From assembly GCA_017484085.1 (NCBI GenBank), contig JAFUTW010000002.1, positions 1 through 51,431 of the forward strand: a DNA stretch of 51,431 nt, written 5' to 3'. The stretch's first letter is position 1. Each line of letters begins with the position of its first letter. This document shows positions 13,733-51,273 of the stretch, piece after piece. The DNA is from Clostridia bacterium. GTDB lineage: Bacteria; Bacillota; Clostridia; Christensenellales; Aristaeellaceae. The notes below the pieces were generated by a model. That model did no database searches. It had not been told where the DNA came from and was given only the letters and a program-made list of their open reading frames with translations. Position numbers and translations under genes: made by a program.

Positions 13733-14248
13733 TTATTTTTCCAGCATGTAGGCGGCCACGATCTCCCCGTAATAGGCGACGTGTTCCGCCGTCTCAGCGG
13801 CATAGAATTCCCTGCGGATGCTCTCCGGCAGCTTCGCGGCGTCCATCTCCTCCCGGCAGATGACCCGGCACTCCAGCGTCAGCGGCGCCTCCAGGACCGC
13901 CGGCACGGAGATGACCTCCGGCTCCACCAGAGTTAGGCCTGCCTCGCTGATCTTATCCATGTCCCGGCCGCTCTTCGTTCCGCAGACCATCATCGTCTTC
14001 CGGTCCAGCCCCCGCACAGGGATGTTGACGGTGAACTCGGGGTTTGCGTCCAGCATCTCCCGGGTATAGCGGCAGGTGCGCACATAGGCGACGAACACCG
14101 GAAGCTCCCAGATGCGGCCGATATGGCCCCAGCCGATGGCCATCGAATTCACCTTGTCGCCGTTTTTCGTGGTGAGCAGCGCGCCCTTCTCCAGCGCTTT
14201 CGTGATCTCGCCGGCAACCGCCGTCAAGTCGATTTTCCTTCTGTTCAT
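13733..14248 (-). CDS. Flavin reductase family protein (flavoredoxin-like)
   Basis: This 171-residue protein of the flavin-reductase-like FMN-binding split-barrel fold is likely to bind FMN and pass electrons from NAD(P)H or a partner. The family core is visible as NGDKVNSMAIGWGHIGRIWELPVFVAYVRTCRYT (positions about 29-62), followed by FTVNIP and the CGTKSGRDMDK segment characteristic of flavoredoxins. Length is typical. The start has a perfect AAGGAGG site. It is the first gene of a two-gene transcript with the flavodoxin-like protein, driven by a strong promoter at 14303-14331. No regulator is adjacent. Confidence 0.88.
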   Translation of the reverse strand: MNRRKIDLTAVAGEITKALEKGALLTTKNGDKVNSMAIGWGHIGRIWELPVFVAYVRTCRYTREMLDANPEFTVNIPVRGLDRKTMMVCGTKSGRDMDKISEAGLTLVEPEVISVPAVLEAPLTLECRVICREEMDAAKLPESIRREFYAAETAEHVAYYGEIVAAYMLEK

Positions 14249-14302
14249 GGTTTCCTCCTTCGGGTCTTTGCCCGTCTCTAAAAGCTTTCTGCTGATAATC
14301 CA

Positions 14303-14331
14303 ATCATATTCGAAATCGGGGCGGATGTAAA
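14303..14331 (-). promoter_or_regulatory. Promoter of the flavin reductase-flavodoxin pair
   Basis: On the minus strand TTTACA (14326-14331) and TATGAT (14303-14308) are separated by exactly 17 bases. It stands 54 bases before the ATG. Confidence 0.7.
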
Positions 14332-14400
14332 CAGAAAACCGGAGAAACTGCCGTGGGAAGCTTGGGTGCGGCTTTGCTTCGGCAGTAGCCCGGCGGTTTA

Positions 14401-14429
14401 TTGACGGTCATATCGTATGAGGATATAGT
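14401..14429 (+). promoter_or_regulatory. Promoter for a candidate non-coding RNA
   Basis: TTGACG (14401-14406) and TATAGT (14424-14429) have a 17-base spacer. No open frame with a ribosome-binding site follows before the terminator at 14590, so the product is probably RNA. Confidence 0.65.
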
Positions 14430-14435
14430 GTTAGC

Positions 14436-14590
14436 GGAGTTATCTGCAGATCCGTTTAGGGCGTAGACCCCATGGCTGTTTCCGGAAACGGGGGCACGGC
14501 AGGGAGTGTCTGTTGGGCTCCGGCAAAGGCCAGCGTTGCCGCGTCCATCGCCCCAGGCGACCGCGGTTTGAACAACGCTGGTCTTTTCTT
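14436..14590 (+). ncRNA. Candidate stand-alone structured RNA, possibly a raiA-type RNA
   Basis: A transcript starting about 7 bases after the -10 box and ending at the T-rich tail would be about 155 nucleotides. It contains a 10-base palindrome (14442-14451), a GTTT-CCGG-AAAC hairpin (14478-14489) inside a CCCC/GGGG pairing, and a long nested hairpin at 14530-14581. No plausible coding frame with a Shine-Dalgarno site lies in it. Promoter, structure and terminator together support a real RNA gene. From memory the sequence recalls the conserved raiA-motif RNA of Clostridia, but this is an unverified impression; 6S RNA or a leader of the downstream gene are alternatives. The leader reading is weakened by the terminator lying 105 bases before that gene. 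Confidence 0.55.
14530..14590 (+). terminator. Nested hairpin with T-rich tail ending the candidate RNA
   Basis: Three stems nest: 14530-14538 with 14573-14581 (9 bp), 14539-14543 with 14562-14566 (5 bp) and 14549-14552 with 14556-14559 (4 bp). TCTTTTCTT follows. This resembles an intrinsic terminator that is also part of the RNA fold. Confidence 0.65.
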
Positions 14591-14694
14591 AATAAAATCC
14601 GAAAGATCATATCCGTGAAAAAAGAATCGACTGTTAAGTTGCCATCTTGCCTGACACCGATTAAAGCAGATGTCTTCACGAAAGGGAGAAAGAA

Positions 14695-15036
14695 ATGAAT
14701 ACCGTTGATTTGAGAAATGTCTTGGCACGAAGATCATCATTACACATCAATGATGACCTTGCTCTCATGGACTGCTGGGAACAAGAAACTGAAATTCTGT
14801 CCGATGATCTATCTGAGACCATAGCTTTTTTCGATACCTGTACAGACAAAGAGTTTTACTGGCTCAGCGAGGTGTTTGATAATTTGATTGAAAAAACACA
14901 GAGCAGGGAGCTCTTTCAAGCGATTTGCAAACGCGCAGAAAGGGTCAATAACAGGGAATACAAGGTTAGCATAGCAACAGATATTGAACTTGCAAAAGAC
15001 CAGTTTTCAAGGAATGATGTCACAACTATGGTTTAA
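14695..15036 (+). CDS. Small acidic protein of unknown function
   Basis: This 113-residue soluble protein is rich in Glu, Asp and Leu and predicted mostly helical. The segment ETEILSDDLSETIAFFDTC is acidic and LSEVFDNLIEKTQSREL is amphipathic. No signal peptide, membrane helix or catalytic motif is visible. Small acidic helical proteins of this kind are often immunity proteins or antitoxin-like partners, but nothing in the sequence proves it and no cognate toxin is adjacent. The start has GAAAGGGAG upstream. Codon use is clearly more AT-rich than neighbours, suggesting a different origin. A terminator follows at 15053-15088, so it is monocistronic unless read from the RNA promoter upstream. 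Confidence 0.7.
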   Translation: MNTVDLRNVLARRSSLHINDDLALMDCWEQETEILSDDLSETIAFFDTCTDKEFYWLSEVFDNLIEKTQSRELFQAICKRAERVNNREYKVSIATDIELAKDQFSRNDVTTMV

Positions 15037-15052
15037 CACTCAAAACAAGTAT

Positions 15053-15088
15053 AAAAAGGCCTGTATTTCTAACAATACTAGGCTTTTC
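15053..15088 (+). terminator. Intrinsic terminator after the small acidic protein
   Basis: An imperfect stem (AAAAGGCCTGTATT against AATACTAGGCTTTT, with bulges) around TCTAAC is followed by CTCTT. It lies 16 bases after the stop codon. Confidence 0.65.
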
Positions 15089-15169
15089 TCTTATAAAAGT
15101 CGAACAAAATGTCAGTGTTTAAAGTAAAAAGCTGCTTGTCAGCGACTTTTAGGCTCCATCTTCTGCCAT

Positions 15170-16213
15170 TCATATCGTCTTGCGGATATAGTAGGTGGAT
15201 CGCCCTCCGCCGCGCTTTTCGATCTCACCGCTGGCGCAGAGTGCTCTCAAATGGCGTTCGACCGACGTTGAGCTCATCGATGTGACAAGCTCAGCTATTT
15301 CTGCTTTCGTGAACTTTCCAATCTTTGTCTTTACAGCGTTGCGCACGGTATCAAGCGGAGAAGCGGCAACAAGCTCCATCCGTTCTTCAAAATCCCGGTA
15401 TGCCGCGATGATCGTACCCAGCAGGTACTTGATGAATTCCGTGGGATCATCCTTGCTCTCGTGCCAGCCGGACTGTGATGCTTCCAGGGCGTCATAATAG
15501 CTCTCTTTCGTCCGCGCGATCTTGGCTTCCAGCGAGATATACCTGCCGATCTCATACCCGCAGCGATACAGCAGCAGCGTCGTGAGCAGGCGCGACATTC
15601 TGCCGTTCCCGTCGATGAAAGGATGGATGCAGAGGAAGTCGTGGATAAAGCACGGGATGATCAGCAGCGGATCGACCTTGCCGTCACCAACGGCAAAGTT
15701 GTATGCATCGCACAGTTCGCGCATCGCCTCCGGCGTTTCATACGGTGCCAACGGCGTAAAAAGCGCATAGGTCCTTCCGTCCGCTGTGGTCGCGCTGATA
15801 TAGTTCTGAACGTTCTTGAATGAGCCACCGAAGGCGCTGTCGGTGTGGCTGAACATCATCTTATGGAGCTGTAAGATATAGTTGGGCGTAAGCGGGATAT
15901 ACTCAAAGTTTTCATGCACCGTGTTCAGCGCGTCGCGATAGCCGGCGATCTCTTTCTCATCGCGGGTGCGCGGCGTGGTCTTCTCACTCATGAGCTGCCG
16001 CAGGCGCGTATCCGTCGTGCGGATCCCCTCGATCGCATTGGAGGATTCTGTGCTTTGAATCTTTGCGATCTCAACCAACTTCTCGGCATCGGCCGGTTTT
16101 TGCCGCAGGTACAGTATCTGCTTTCCCTTCTGTTCATGGATTTGGGAAAGGTATCCTACGATCTCGTTATCCCAGGTTTTTTCTTTCAGAAAACTGTAAT
16201 CAAATCTCCGCAT
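15170..16213 (-). CDS. Fic family protein, class II (N-terminal inhibitory helix)
   Basis: This 347-residue Fic enzyme probably transfers AMP (or another nucleotide) from ATP to a protein hydroxyl. The active-site motif HPFIDGNGRMSR begins at catalytic His197. An inhibitory motif of the form S-x-x-x-E-G is present upstream (Ser58 to Glu62, SSNAIEG), which places the protein in class II, with the auto-inhibitory helix N-terminal to the Fic core. A C-terminal winged-helix-like segment (about 285-347, TKAEIAELVTSMSSTSVERHLRAL) is common in this Fic architecture. The ATG at 16213 is preferred because it follows AGGTGAAGGG and a promoter at 16242-16270; an upstream ATG at 16345 would lie beyond that promoter. 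Base composition is lower in G+C than most of the window. Confidence 0.9.
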   Translation of the reverse strand: MRRFDYSFLKEKTWDNEIVGYLSQIHEQKGKQILYLRQKPADAEKLVEIAKIQSTESSNAIEGIRTTDTRLRQLMSEKTTPRTRDEKEIAGYRDALNTVHENFEYIPLTPNYILQLHKMMFSHTDSAFGGSFKNVQNYISATTADGRTYALFTPLAPYETPEAMRELCDAYNFAVGDGKVDPLLIIPCFIHDFLCIHPFIDGNGRMSRLLTTLLLYRCGYEIGRYISLEAKIARTKESYYDALEASQSGWHESKDDPTEFIKYLLGTIIAAYRDFEERMELVAASPLDTVRNAVKTKIGKFTKAEIAELVTSMSSTSVERHLRALCASGEIEKRGGGRSTYYIRKTI

Positions 16214-16361: not shown

Positions 16362-16453
16362 TGGCGCAGAAGGAGGGATTTGAACCCTCGCGACCCTTCA
16401 CGGATCCTACTCCCTTAGCAGGGGAGCCCCTTCGGCCACTTGGGTACTTCTGC
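16362..16453 (-). tRNA. tRNA-Ser (anticodon GCU)
   Basis: The minus strand begins GCAGAAG (16447-16453) and pairs with CTTCTGC (16366-16372). The discriminator G and an encoded CCA are at 16362-16365. The anticodon loop CTGCTAA is closed by CTCCC/GGGAG and gives anticodon GCU. A long variable arm and GGTTCAAATCC T-loop confirm a class II serine tRNA. It is second in a two-tRNA transcript. Confidence 0.95.
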
Positions 16454-16473
16454 ACGACCGAATGATATAAAGT

Positions 16474-16562
16474 TGGCGGAGAGAGAGGGATTCGAACCCC
16501 CGGTACCTTTCGGTATCACTGGTTTTCAAGACCAGCGCCATAAACCACTCGGCCATCTCTCC
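16474..16562 (-). tRNA. tRNA-Ser (anticodon UGA)
   Basis: The minus strand begins GGAGAGA and ends TCTCTCC-G-CCA with CCA encoded (16474-16476). The anticodon loop CTTGAAA closed by CTGGT/ACCAG gives UGA. The extended variable arm and GGTTCGAATCC T-loop identify a serine tRNA. It is separated by 20 bases from the GCU tRNA. Confidence 0.95.
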
Positions 16563-36874: not shown

Positions 36875-38776
36875 TCAGTCTCCCGGCATGTCGCCGTTGG
36901 CGTTGAGTGCGCTGCCGGAGTAGATGAGCTTCAGCGTGTCCGGTCCCGCGGCCCCGTCAACCTTGAGACCGTTCATCTTCTGGAAAGCCTTTGTCGCATC
37001 CACCGTCAGCTGGTTGAAGTTCGCCGTAACGCCCTTCTTCGCCAGATAGCCCAGCTCCTGAAGGCGCTGCTGGTACTGCAGCACGTCCTCGCCCTCGCTC
37101 TGCCACTGCAGAACGATATTGGTGCGGGGCAGCGCCGTCGCTGACGCAGCAGGCACCGCAGCCTCAGGTTCAGGCGTCGTCCTCTCTCTGCCGAAGTAGC
37201 TGCCGTATGATACGACATCATTGCCGAACAGTATAGCCAGCGATCCCGGTCCGGCGATGCCGTCCGCCGTAAGGCCGTTTGCCTCCTGGAAGAGCTTGAC
37301 CGCCCTCTCCGTGCCGGAGCCGAACTGCCCGTCCGAAGAAGACAGGTAGCCCAGCTGCATCAGCCGCTCCTGCAGCGCGGTAACGCCCGCGCCTTTGTCG
37401 CCCTTGCGCATGGTGGACAGCTCGCTTGCGCTGGGGAGTTCTTCGATTTCCTCGGCTGCCGGGCTTCCGGCCGGAATGGCGCGGCTACTGTTCAGCTGCG
37501 ACTGCGTGCCTTTGCCCGCAATGCCGTCCGCCGCAAGCCCGTTCGCCCGCTGGAAGGCGCGTACCGCATCCGTCGTTTCGCTGCTGTAGCGCCCGTCGAT
37601 CCGCCCTGTATAGTACCCCAGTTCGAAAAGCCGCGCCTGCAGCACATACACGTTTTCACCGCTGTCCCCCTCATGCATCGTCGCCGTTTTGGAAGGGGCC
37701 GCCGTCGGCGATGCGGAAGACGCTTTGCTGCTGCCGTTCAGTTTGCGCCAGGTCGCCGCGTTCGTCGTGCCGTCCGCTGTCAGGTTATTGTTCTTCTGGT
37801 AGGCCATCAGCGCGTCTCTCGTCTCCGCGCCGAAAACGCCGTCCGCCACGCCGTCCAGATAGCGCAGCTCGATCAGCCTCTCCTGGAGGGCATAAACGTC
37901 ATTGCCCGTCATACCGATGGACAGCACCCGGTTTTCATCCGGATTGGCTGTGCTGACCGGCGTTGTGTTGTACTTGGCCGTGGCGGCATACAGCTTTTTC
38001 TGGGTCTGCTCACCCGCCTGTCCGTCCGCGCTGAGGCCGTTTGCGCGCTGGAAAGCGCGCACCGCGTCCACCGTCGTGGAACCGTAAAGGCCGTCCACGC
38101 CGCCGGCGTAATACCCCAGTTCCATCAGCCGCGCCTGCAGCCTGCGGACCTCGATGCCGATGGTCCCCTGCTTGAGCAGCAGATAGCTCTCGCTGCCCGC
38201 ATCCGCGCTGATGAGGTTCGCCTGCGCCTGGGAAGAATACAGCAGGTCCTGCGTCTCGCGGCCGGCGATGCCGTCCGTCGTCAGCCCGTTCTTCTCCTGG
38301 AAGGCCCGTACGGCCTCCTGCACAACGGTGGAATACTTTCCGTCGATCTCGCCTTCGTAGTAGCGCAGCGCCGAAAGCTGCCGCTGCAGGTCCGCCACAT
38401 CATCGCCCGTAACACCCAGGCGGAGCACCGGATAGCCTGCATTGTAATCCTTTGTGGAGGTCTGCCAGCTTTCCTGCCCGGGGGCAGCCGTTGCGACCGT
38501 CCTGGGCGTCGTCGTGGGCAGGGTGCCTGCGCTCCAGTCTTCCCAGTCCTCCTGCCGGTTCTGCTGCCAGTCATCCGGGGTCGGTGACGGCTGCGGTTCC
38601 GGCGACGGGGTCGGCTCTGCCGTGGGCAGGGAGGAAACCGTGCCGAACGGGACCGTTCCGTCGCTCAGCGTCAGCGGTTCCAGGGAAGGATCAGGCTGAA
38701 CGAAACAGCCTGTGAGCAGCAGCGCCAGCGCCGAAAGCAGCAGCGCCAGCGTCCCTCTTTTGATCTTTCCGTTCAT
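36875..38776 (-). CDS. Lipoprotein with six peptidoglycan-binding repeats
   Basis: This 633-residue exported lipoprotein has the lipobox LLLTG-Cys24. After a Pro/Thr/Ser-rich linker (about 40-115) come six PG_binding_1 domains of roughly 60 residues, each showing the LQxxLxxLGYY-GxxDGxxG-xxTxxAVxxFQxxNGLxxDG pattern. They are separated by short Ser/Thr-rich linkers. No catalytic domain is present, so it is a wall-anchored binding protein. The ATG 38776 follows AAAGGAGGAG. It is the third gene after the MreB-family and YjjG-like genes, 13 bases from the latter. A scaffold role linking membrane and wall is inferred. Confidence 0.9.
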   Translation of the reverse strand: MNGKIKRGTLALLLSALALLLTGCFVQPDPSLEPLTLSDGTVPFGTVSSLPTAEPTPSPEPQPSPTPDDWQQNRQEDWEDWSAGTLPTTTPRTVATAAPGQESWQTSTKDYNAGYPVLRLGVTGDDVADLQRQLSALRYYEGEIDGKYSTVVQEAVRAFQEKNGLTTDGIAGRETQDLLYSSQAQANLISADAGSESYLLLKQGTIGIEVRRLQARLMELGYYAGGVDGLYGSTTVDAVRAFQRANGLSADGQAGEQTQKKLYAATAKYNTTPVSTANPDENRVLSIGMTGNDVYALQERLIELRYLDGVADGVFGAETRDALMAYQKNNNLTADGTTNAATWRKLNGSSKASSASPTAAPSKTATMHEGDSGENVYVLQARLFELGYYTGRIDGRYSSETTDAVRAFQRANGLAADGIAGKGTQSQLNSSRAIPAGSPAAEEIEELPSASELSTMRKGDKGAGVTALQERLMQLGYLSSSDGQFGSGTERAVKLFQEANGLTADGIAGPGSLAILFGNDVVSYGSYFGRERTTPEPEAAVPAASATALPRTNIVLQWQSEGEDVLQYQQRLQELGYLAKKGVTANFNQLTVDATKAFQKMNGLKVDGAAGPDTLKLIYSGSALNANGDMPGD

Positions 38777-44932: not shown

Positions 44933-46177
44933 TCAGGCGACGCCGAAGAGCTCGCCCAGCGCCTGCGTATCCAGCTTGGAGCCGATCACGCACAGGCGGC
45001 CGGTGTAGTCCGCCGGGCCGCGGCGCACGTTCTGCTCGCCGGGGGTGTAATCAAAGTGGATCCAGCCGCCGTCCGCAGCCGGCACGATGCCCTTGGCGCG
45101 CAGGATGACGCCGTAGCGCTCATCCTCCAGCGCGGATAGCATGGCGGAGAGATCCGCCTCGCTGAACTTGCGCACCGTTTCCACGCCCCAGGAATCGAAG
45201 ATCTCATCCGCGTCGTGGCCGTGGTGGTGGTGATGATGGTGATGATGCCCGTCATGGTCGTGATGGTGGTGATCATGATGCTCATCTTCCTCGTTTTCAT
45301 GCTCATGGTGGTGATCGTGGTCTTCATCATGATCCTCATCGTGGTCATGGTGGTGATGATGCTCATGCTCATGCTCGTCCTCATCATCATCGTCGTCGTG
45401 ATGGTGATGCTCGTGCTCATGCTCATCCTCGTCATCATCGTCGTCGTGATGGTGATGATGCTCGTGTTCATGCTCATCCTCATCGTGATCATGATGGTGG
45501 TGGTGATGATGCTCCTCTTCTTCCTCCTCGTCATAGGGCTGCGCCATGACGGCGGAAAGCATCTCCTCGGCCAGCGTGTGGTCCTCGTTCATCGCGGCCA
45601 TGATGACGTCGCCCGAAAGCTCGTCCCACGGGGTCGTGATGATGCGCGCCTTCGCGTTGTGCTCGCGCAGCAACGCGACCACCGCTTCCAGCTTCTCCTG
45701 GGAGAGGTTCTGCGTGCGGGAGAGCAGGATGGTGCCCGCGTACTCGATCTGGTTGAGGAAGAACTCGCCGAAGTTCTTCACATACATGCGGCACTTCACC
45801 GCATCCGCCACAGTGACGAAGCTGCCCATCCGGGCCTCGTCGATGTCGCGCTCCACGCCCTCCACGGCGCGGATGACGTCGCTCAGCTTGCCCACGCCGG
45901 AGGGCTCGATGAGGATGCGGTCGGGGTGATACTGGTCGATCACCTGGCGCAGCGCCACGCCGAAATCGCCCACGAGGCTGCAGCAGATGCAGCCGGAGTT
46001 CATTTCGGTCACCTGGATGCCCGCTTCCTTCATGAAGCCGCCGTCGATGCCGATCTCGCCGAATTCATTCTCGATCAGCACGACCTGCTCGCCCGCGAGG
46101 GACTCCTTGAGCAGCTTTTTGATCAGCGTCGTCTTGCCGGCTCCGAGGAAGCCGGAGAAAATGTCAATCGTAGTCAT
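44933..46177 (-). CDS. G3E (CobW/COG0523) GTPase with long His/Asp/Glu-rich insert
   Basis: This 414-residue metal-chaperone-type GTPase has Walker A GFLGAGKTTLIK (about residues 9-20), the zinc-binding motif SGCICCSL (CxCC) and the Walker B region ILIEPSGVGKLSDV. Its G4 position reads LLSRTQ, not NKxD, so nucleotide preference is uncertain. Between about residues 214 and 320 lies a low-complexity stretch of His, Asp and Glu with over 50 histidines by eye, a likely metal store. A normal CobW C-terminal domain (about 325-414) follows. AAGGAG precedes the ATG. A promoter with an overlapping palindrome is at 46235-46267. The metal is probably zinc by family, not proven here. Confidence 0.88.
   Translation of the reverse strand: MTTIDIFSGFLGAGKTTLIKKLLKESLAGEQVVLIENEFGEIGIDGGFMKEAGIQVTEMNSGCICCSLVGDFGVALRQVIDQYHPDRILIEPSGVGKLSDVIRAVEGVERDIDEARMGSFVTVADAVKCRMYVKNFGEFFLNQIEYAGTILLSRTQNLSQEKLEAVVALLREHNAKARIITTPWDELSGDVIMAAMNEDHTLAEEMLSAVMAQPYDEEEEEEHHHHHHHDHDEDEHEHEHHHHHDDDDDEDEHEHEHHHHDDDDDEDEHEHEHHHHHDHDEDHDEDHDHHHEHENEEDEHHDHHHHDHDGHHHHHHHHHGHDADEIFDSWGVETVRKFSEADLSAMLSALEDERYGVILRAKGIVPAADGGWIHFDYTPGEQNVRRGPADYTGRLCVIGSKLDTQALGELFGVA
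45215..45535. repeat. Low-complexity tandem repeats encoding the His/Asp/Glu tract
   Basis: Irregular repeats of CAT/CAC, GAT/GAC and GAG codons, read on the minus strand, encode units of the type DEDEHEHEHHHHHDDDD. Three adjacent units (about 45,350-45,500) are nearly the same, with one to two codon changes, consistent with slippage or unequal exchange. The opposite strand shows long Met/Val/Ile frames that are artefacts of this tract. Confidence 0.85.
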
Positions 46178-50412: not shown

Positions 50413-51273
50413 TTATTGATGGGTGTTCTTCTTTCTGCTGAATATCAGCGTGCCGCACACGGCGCTGACGCCCAGGAGCACACATCCCAGCCACAGCCAC
50501 AGATCGAAATCATCGCCTGTCTTGGGCACCTTGTAATTGATGATGGTGCCGCCATTGTAGCAGCGATCCGTTTCCCCGGCGTGCGCGCCTACGTTTTCAT
50601 ATCGGACTTTGTAGCCATCGGGGATCGTTTCAATTATATAGCAGTCATCCACAGGCTCCGGGAACCATGCTTCATAATACCATTCGTTTTCGCTGATATA
50701 GCGCTTGTTGAATTTTTTATGCAGCACTGAGCCGTCCGGCCGATACAGTATCCAATCAATGCTGTCTTCGTGACTTCCCTGCCACAGCTTGGTAAAGGTG
50801 AAGCAATAGGGATAGGGAACGGGCGTGGGCGGCGGCGTGATAATGACATTGTAAAACTCCAGGGCTTCTTTCTTCCCTTGGGATGTTTTTCCCAGCACCC
50901 CGTAGGTATCAACGATAATTGAATATCCAACCTGATCCTCTGAATTGTAATACAGAATCACTCTCAGATCATATTGTGTGTGGTCATATTGAACTGTTTC
51001 TGTATCATGATCGGCCAGGCGAATAGAAAAATCAAACTGTTTGAGCCCAACACATTCAATGGTGAAGGAAGACGGCACATCCTTTATCAGCCGTATTGTT
51101 TGCAATTGAATGCCGTCACTGCCATACAATTCTGCCGTGCAGTCTGCACCATACGCAATCACCGGGATATTCACTTGGGCCGATTCCGAAGCAGCGGCAT
51201 GGGCCATCGGCATTATCCATAGGAAGGCGCATATAAGGAGCGCACCCAGGATCATATCAGTTTTACCTTTCAT
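50413..51273 (-). CDS. Sortase-anchored FctA/Cna-B-like pilin protein
   Basis: This 286-residue surface protein has a signal peptide (residues 1-27, ending AHA-AA). An N-terminal beta-rich domain (about 30-145) resembles the Spy0128/FctA pilin domain with isopeptide-forming potential. A second domain (about 150-240) follows after a Pro-rich hinge (PPPTPVPYP) and resembles a Cna-B domain (FTKLWQGSHEDSIDWILY). The C-terminal sorting signal is VPKTGD, with a 21-residue hydrophobic helix and RKKNTHQ tail. Its ATG overlaps the stop of the sortase fragment upstream (ATGA). A partner pilin and the substrate of either sortase are plausible; adhesion is likely. Confidence 0.85.
   Translation of the reverse strand: MKGKTDMILGALLICAFLWIMPMAHAAASESAQVNIPVIAYGADCTAELYGSDGIQLQTIRLIKDVPSSFTIECVGLKQFDFSIRLADHDTETVQYDHTQYDLRVILYYNSEDQVGYSIIVDTYGVLGKTSQGKKEALEFYNVIITPPPTPVPYPYCFTFTKLWQGSHEDSIDWILYRPDGSVLHKKFNKRYISENEWYYEAWFPEPVDDCYIIETIPDGYKVRYENVGAHAGETDRCYNGGTIINYKVPKTGDDFDLWLWLGCVLLGVSAVCGTLIFSRKKNTHQ

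Follow-up and report, generated by a model that had tools for sequence, protein, structure and literature searches.

The locus considered here raises the question of whether a short interval between two genes of a Clostridia bacterium encodes an RNA that is made and acts on its own, and if so, of what kind. The window, that is, the whole stretch of 51,431 nucleotides that was analysed, forms contig C31 of the draft genome G000, which is 81% complete. The interval lies between a flavin reductase gene (PF01613 match) and a small AT-rich gene encoding 113 amino acids (GC content 0.398 vs 0.622 for the window), which is where the first-pass annotation had placed a candidate stand-alone structured RNA with its own promoter and terminator. 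Below, the window copy is termed W, and the copies at G000:C40 and G011:C14 are termed C-A and G-A, respectively, where G011 is a genome from the same genus as G000; further units are C-2 at G000:C40, and G-B and G-C at the G011 locus.

The promoter TTGACG-17-TATAGT proposed for W is present and matches the consensus at 10 of 12 positions (Table 1). Both strands of the region 14000-15200 contain seven promoter-like sites vs 1.6 expected in shuffled sequences. By sequence match alone the W promoter is a weak case, and the conservation of its hexamers at two other loci is the stronger evidence. The stretch AGTAGCCCGGCGG directly upstream of the -35 box has counterparts in the other two copies, AGTAGCCCAGCAGG and AGTAACCCAGCAGG, offset by one base, and is possibly a regulator site. 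The predicted transcription start is the first base of a GGAG sequence at the foot of the closing stem, and the predicted transcript of about 155 nt would extend to about position 14590. It ends, as the annotation had it, in a hairpin with a T-rich tail, whose stem (14525-14586) has 14 outer pairs with a nested hairpin inside, followed by the tail TCTTTTCTT; folded alone, this terminator has a z-score of -5.35 and was equalled in stability by none of 200 shuffles. It was absent from the output of a simple terminator scan because the latter admits loops of 3-8 nt only. The plus strand of 14434-14592 folds at -71.6 kcal/mol (z -2.98, 1 of 200 shuffles as stable) and its reverse strand is ordinary (z -0.68, 54 of 200). 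The 5' domain of W folded by itself is unremarkable (z -0.93, 31 of 200 shuffles), and the terminator hairpin is, according to these folding models, the outstanding part of the W fold; thus, a single-sequence fold cannot settle the structured-RNA question.

Table 1. Predicted features of the W locus (window coordinates).
Feature	Position	Strand	Basis
AGTAGCCCGGCGG, directly 5' of the -35 box	14384-14396	+	sequence rows
Promoter TTGACG-17-TATAGT	14401-14429	+	sequence; hexamers kept in both other copies
Predicted transcription start, 7 nt 3' of the -10 box	14436	+	same spacing in W, C-A, G-A and C-2
5' domain leading to a three-way junction: P1 (14435-14440/14517-14522), P2 (14443-14450/14509-14516)	14435-14522	+	RNAalifold and pair counts, three sequences
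P3 hairpin CGU-UUAGG-GCG (CGU-YUNGG-ACG type common to units elsewhere)	14453-14463	+	alignment, motif search
Arm P4 with P5 hairpin (14477-14496)	14467-14507	+	RNAalifold, pair counts
Small open reading frame of 48 aa overlapping the RNA	14472-14618	+	first 14 codons align with a 14-codon frame in both homologues
Terminator hairpin and T-rich tail	14525-14591	+	fold; 77% identity over 61 nt with the G011 terminator

A DNA search with W across 60 genomes, its own included, matched the terminator region at G011:C14 (Table 1), and the same promoter and 5' domain were found some 230-390 nt upstream of that match. Using G-A as a query, we identified C-A at G000:C40:61077-61241, which is 83% identical to G-A over 168 nt. 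Matches at E up to 0.1 occurred in 17 of the 60 genomes, again counting its own; those beyond its own genome and G011:C14 were weak, and three of them lie outside the family of genomes scanned as described next. A covariance model, R1, was built from W, C-A and G-A. R1 scores 101-110 bits on its three source sequences and 12.7 bits on the next best match within the window. Among 308 genomes of the family (strict filters, E up to 0.1), it recovered the three copies only, in two genomes, and in a 396-genome sample of the order it recovered G000 and one false match inside a protein gene. One of 14 loci from pattern scans of the genome_contigs set was strongly matched (L054, which is the G011 sequence itself) and 13 were not; the L054 record is a 'Clostridiales bacterium' metagenome assembly, RUG12645, a name that we take to mean rumen origin. 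Likewise, R1 matched none of three loci from viral pattern scans, it scored strongly only at the known C40 copy among 24 further stretches, and plasmid and phage BLAST searches together with the viral pattern scans gave no further true copy. Several lesser candidates were set aside: matches in G208 and G271 from the search with G-A look by eye like coding sequence, and R1 matches lie inside a terminase-like frame (viral locus L044, 14.3 bits) and a phosphoglucose-isomerase-like frame (G641, 22.6 bits), both named by eye, or, for the next-best match among the 24 stretches, within a 300-aa regulator-like frame on the other strand (L094, 18.3 bits). As judged by these searches, the RNA family is narrowly distributed.

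Anchoring the three loci on the -35 box revealed an uneven pattern of conservation. The -35 hexamer is identical at 6 of 6 positions in all three pairwise comparisons and the -10 hexamer at 5-6 of 6, vs only 4-8 of 17 positions in the spacer and 1-4 of 6 in the discriminator. GGAG follows the -10 box at the same 7-nt distance in all three copies, as it does in the fourth unit, C-2, and the RNA is well conserved from GGAG onward across the three copies. Retention of the promoter and RNA with loss of the stretches between them is the pattern predicted for a functional, independently transcribed RNA.

Compensatory changes in stems among homologues, for which the annotation had proposed to look, are present: from the alignment of three copies alone RNAalifold predicted 32 pairs, four of which are changed on both sides, and two of these four sit in the P4/P5 arm (alignment columns 35/75 and 46/63). 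The P5 loop is of GNRA type but varies, with GAAA in W (14485-14488), GCAA in C-A and UUAA in G-A. In a hand-drawn structure, 93.3% of cells are paired vs 38-48% when the structure is slid along the alignment; it contains three double changes, and its pair count was reached by 21 of 500 shuffles, while a control on further pair types was reached by 212 of 500. Folded singly, C-A and G-A do not exceed shuffles in stability (z 0.53 and -0.31), and their minimum-energy folds depart from the consensus, which also contains conserved bases outside pairs. The covariation evidence, which comes from three close sequences, is real but modest.

Both loci outside the window contain possible further units with the same kind of hairpin. 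At G011, the locus runs on for about 394 nt with two more such hairpins, G-B (CGUCUUGGACG) and G-C (CGUCUAGGACG), and the run ends in a terminator like that of the window; at G000:C40, a second promoter-like site, TTGACA-17-TACAGT, lies upstream of C-2, which carries CGUUAUCGGACG. The closing stem of G-B has 12 pairs around the hairpin, and 2 of 500 shuffles matched the expected closing pairs; that of C-2 has nine pairs, with 23 of 500 shuffles as good. Only these two of the six units stood out in this way, and W did not (123 of 500). R1 scores are 16.2, 11.1 and 8.7 bits for G-B, G-C and C-2, respectively; since unrelated stretches in the same search reach up to 12.1 bits (12.1 and 8.8 bits vs G-C and C-2), kinship of the last two with the RNA family is suggestive only. 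The hairpin motif CGTYTNGGRCGT is rare, with two matches in G000 that both fall within these RNAs, vs 26 for the reversed pattern, and seven in G011, three of them within 254 nt at the RNA locus, vs 24 for the reversed pattern. Three of the four extra G011 matches are in long open frames; a further one (L109, G011:C8:57944) seems to lie just past a stop codon. The hairpin contains GGAC in C-A, C-2, G-A, G-B and G-C and GGGC in W.

A stand-alone small RNA has its own promoter and its own terminator; here the former is a sequence conserved at fixed spacing at three loci, and the latter is predicted from sequence. On the basis of the conserved hexamers at fixed spacing, one consensus structure and the strong predicted terminator, comparison of the three copies supports the original proposal, and we consider it highly probable that the interval encodes a structured stand-alone RNA. 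The fuller reading, which we favour on balance, is that this RNA, about 155 nt long, belongs to a family without an Rfam entry that resides in accessory or mobile islands within a single Clostridia-type genus. Such an RNA would be transcribed on its own and would act in trans. The P3 hairpin, a motif recurring in every unit, is a probable protein-recognition element, and its constancy while the other helices change would suggest a specific partner. A protein would bind the invariant P3 hairpin and the junction, with the RNA serving as a decoy or a ribonucleoprotein scaffold, and the surrounding helices would be free to change in sequence while P3 stays. We put forward this protein-binding mode, rather than a base-pairing one, tentatively, as the most likely mode but at clearly less than an even chance. 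Action by base pairing, with the conserved GGCCCCAUGGCU stretch and its neighbours targeting mRNAs in trans, is the strongest of the alternatives, albeit in our estimate an unlikely one. Its stand-alone architecture is typical of base-pairing regulatory RNAs and the conserved bases outside pairs fit such a function, but the consensus places much of the conserved sequence in pairs.

Conservation could also reflect coding, in which case the transcript would be the messenger for a very small protein (M-A-x-x-x-N-x-G-T-A-G-x-x-C). On the same strand, two frames of 40 aa or more overlap the interval, one of 48 aa (Table 1) and one of 61 aa (14513-14698); frames of 79 and 94 aa are present on the opposite strand. 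Opposite-strand frames with a start comprise 94, 60 and 49 codons in W, C-A and G-A, respectively, and may be coding, which we counted against an RNA. The frame with the conserved ATG has 29 of 42 pairwise amino acid agreements vs a column-shuffled mean of 23.7 (p 0.037), and third positions are favoured where W differs from either other copy (7 of 13 in each comparison), but only one of five differences between C-A and G-A falls at a third position, and some of the changes at third positions affect bases of pairs that are maintained. The frame is 14 aa long in two copies and open to 48 aa in the window, where the stop after codon 14 is missing and the frame runs through the terminator. The ribosome site of the 14-codon frame is weak (-4.1 kcal/mol vs -7.7 for the 113-aa gene), and strong conservation extends beyond the frame to GGAG, P3 and the promoter. 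Taken together, we regard a small-protein mRNA as improbable, and a structured RNA is retained as the preferred interpretation.

The genomic setting of the copies suggests an association with integration sites. At G000:C40, a 92-bp stretch comprising the 3' half of tRNA-Thr(GGT) and a terminator (67336-67427) is repeated with 99% identity at about 61718-61809. Between the repeats lie genes for a single-stranded DNA-binding protein (SSB) and an AAA ATPase (Pfam) as well as integrase-like and helicase-like genes (by eye), and the C40 RNAs sit just beyond the displaced tRNA-Thr copy; the bracketed stretch corresponds to L035 and L101 (G000:C40, about 61.7-67.5 kb). In G011, the RNA and an intact tRNA-Thr(GGT) are 3.5 kb apart, separated by a phage-type integrase and an ArdC-type gene. 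Within the genus, 24 of 29 genomes gave partial matches to a 901-base query, mostly at its tRNA end, and in four relatives (G026, G021, G006 and G019) a single contig carries two such tRNA-Thr 3' matches, which suggests that the genus has an integration hotspot; R1 revealed no further RNA in the stretches scanned around these two-match regions. W lies elsewhere than the tRNA-Thr sites, beside the AT-rich gene, and comparison of the window with itself gave no direct repeat of the tRNA end that would link W to a tRNA-Ser pair at 16362-16562 (-). We infer that the RNA is island cargo.

Several other features of the neighbourhood were recorded. A Fic-family gene (PF02661, 15170-16345, -) lies directly downstream of the tRNA-Ser pair. 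The 113-aa gene (14695-15036, +) has no Pfam match and has a 62% homologue in G011:C3; it looks like an orphan immunity gene because that homologue lies immediately downstream of a gene encoding a bacterial EndoU nuclease domain. The self-comparison also showed internal direct repeats at 45203-45534 and 37251-38318, about 70-86% alike. The convergent gene beside the G011 RNA (L038, 1756-1965) has a translated match of 54% at window positions 50488-50697, near its end; by eye it resembles part of a cell-wall-anchored protein.

The same setting might instead indicate a decaying piece of a mobile element, functionless and alike among copies through recent shared descent only. The patchy distribution, the location of two copies beside tRNA-Thr and the lack in W of the middle segment present in G011 would agree with decay, but conservation is uneven as expected of function, with the hexamers and RNA kept and the spacer and discriminator not, and we give this explanation little credence. 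Still less probable is a role as the 5' leader of the AT-rich gene at 14695-15036, or as its attenuator, in which the terminator would act as a switch. The gene has the same orientation, its start codon is 108 nt from the terminator stem, and the sole promoter-like site listed between them (14569-14598, 9 of 12 matches) overlaps the terminator. However, the C-A copy is followed by a TlpA-like gene that is itself preceded by a further terminator-like and promoter-like site, the G-A copy by a convergent gene, and the G011 homologue of the 113-aa gene follows the EndoU nuclease domain, with no R1 match nearby. Three different downstream contexts argue against a leader, which we rejected, and for an RNA that likely acts in trans. 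A chance hairpin was rejected on the basis of the homologues found with R1, the two-sided pair changes and the kept promoter hexamers.

A bolder extension of the stand-alone RNA reading, which we offer as a long shot, is a modular mobile-island system in which serial three-way-junction units, with the CGU-YUNGG-ACG hairpin in common and their other helices rewritten, would form a ribonucleoprotein or decoy array read through that hairpin by a protein of the element or host, for example as an RNA antitoxin or a counter-defence decoy. If the favoured reading is true, this locus represents a structured RNA family that Rfam 15 lacks, although of a known general kind, that is tied to integration hotspots in little-known Clostridia-type bacteria, and the P3 loop and junction provide a concrete handle for finding its partner.

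Comparison with known RNA families favours the novel RNA that the first-pass annotation had left open beside raiA-motif and 6S-like identities. A search of the whole window with all Rfam 15 models at gathering scores yielded two tRNAs only, and a permissive search of 14200-14800 (E up to 10) yielded three low-scoring eukaryotic families, neither raiA nor 6S nor any other credible match; the two homologous loci gave only weak unrelated matches below cut-offs. Among the titles and abstracts listed by searches of an open-licence literature library, none describes this RNA. GOLLD and ROOL RNAs are linked to mobile elements. The RNA reported here resembles them in being a bacterial structured RNA, but they are described as large and ornate, and it has no Rfam match. 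In CsrB/RsmZ-type sponge RNAs, short hairpins carry GG(A) in the loop, and similar GG(A)-loop hairpins occur here, several in a row in G011; however, W has GGG rather than GGA, and the units are large and far apart. A search for CsrA detected it in neither G000 nor G011 (81% and 89% complete) and in 3 of 14 controls, and a CsrA sponge was rejected on this result together with the lack of GGA in W. The 6S RNA is one long hairpin with a central bubble. The present RNA is likewise a stand-alone RNA of similar length, but it has no match to the 6S model (RF00013) at the locus; a separate 6S RNA of G000 was found elsewhere (L060, G000:C48:35347-35533; 62 bits, above the gathering score). The raiA model (RF03072; 209 positions, gathering score of 101.3 bits) gave no hit here at E values up to 10, so that the suggested raiA identity is not upheld; the absence of raiA from the G000 scan is weak evidence because control genomes were silent too. 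The raiA motif, or ModT, is described as a stand-alone structured RNA of Clostridia with eight paired regions and two pseudoknots, present in more than 2,500 species (PMC11706538). The RNA reported here shares that general character with raiA; its predicted consensus shows one closing stem, a single three-way junction and two arms, and it differs from raiA in its occurrence in 2 of 308 genomes of the family.
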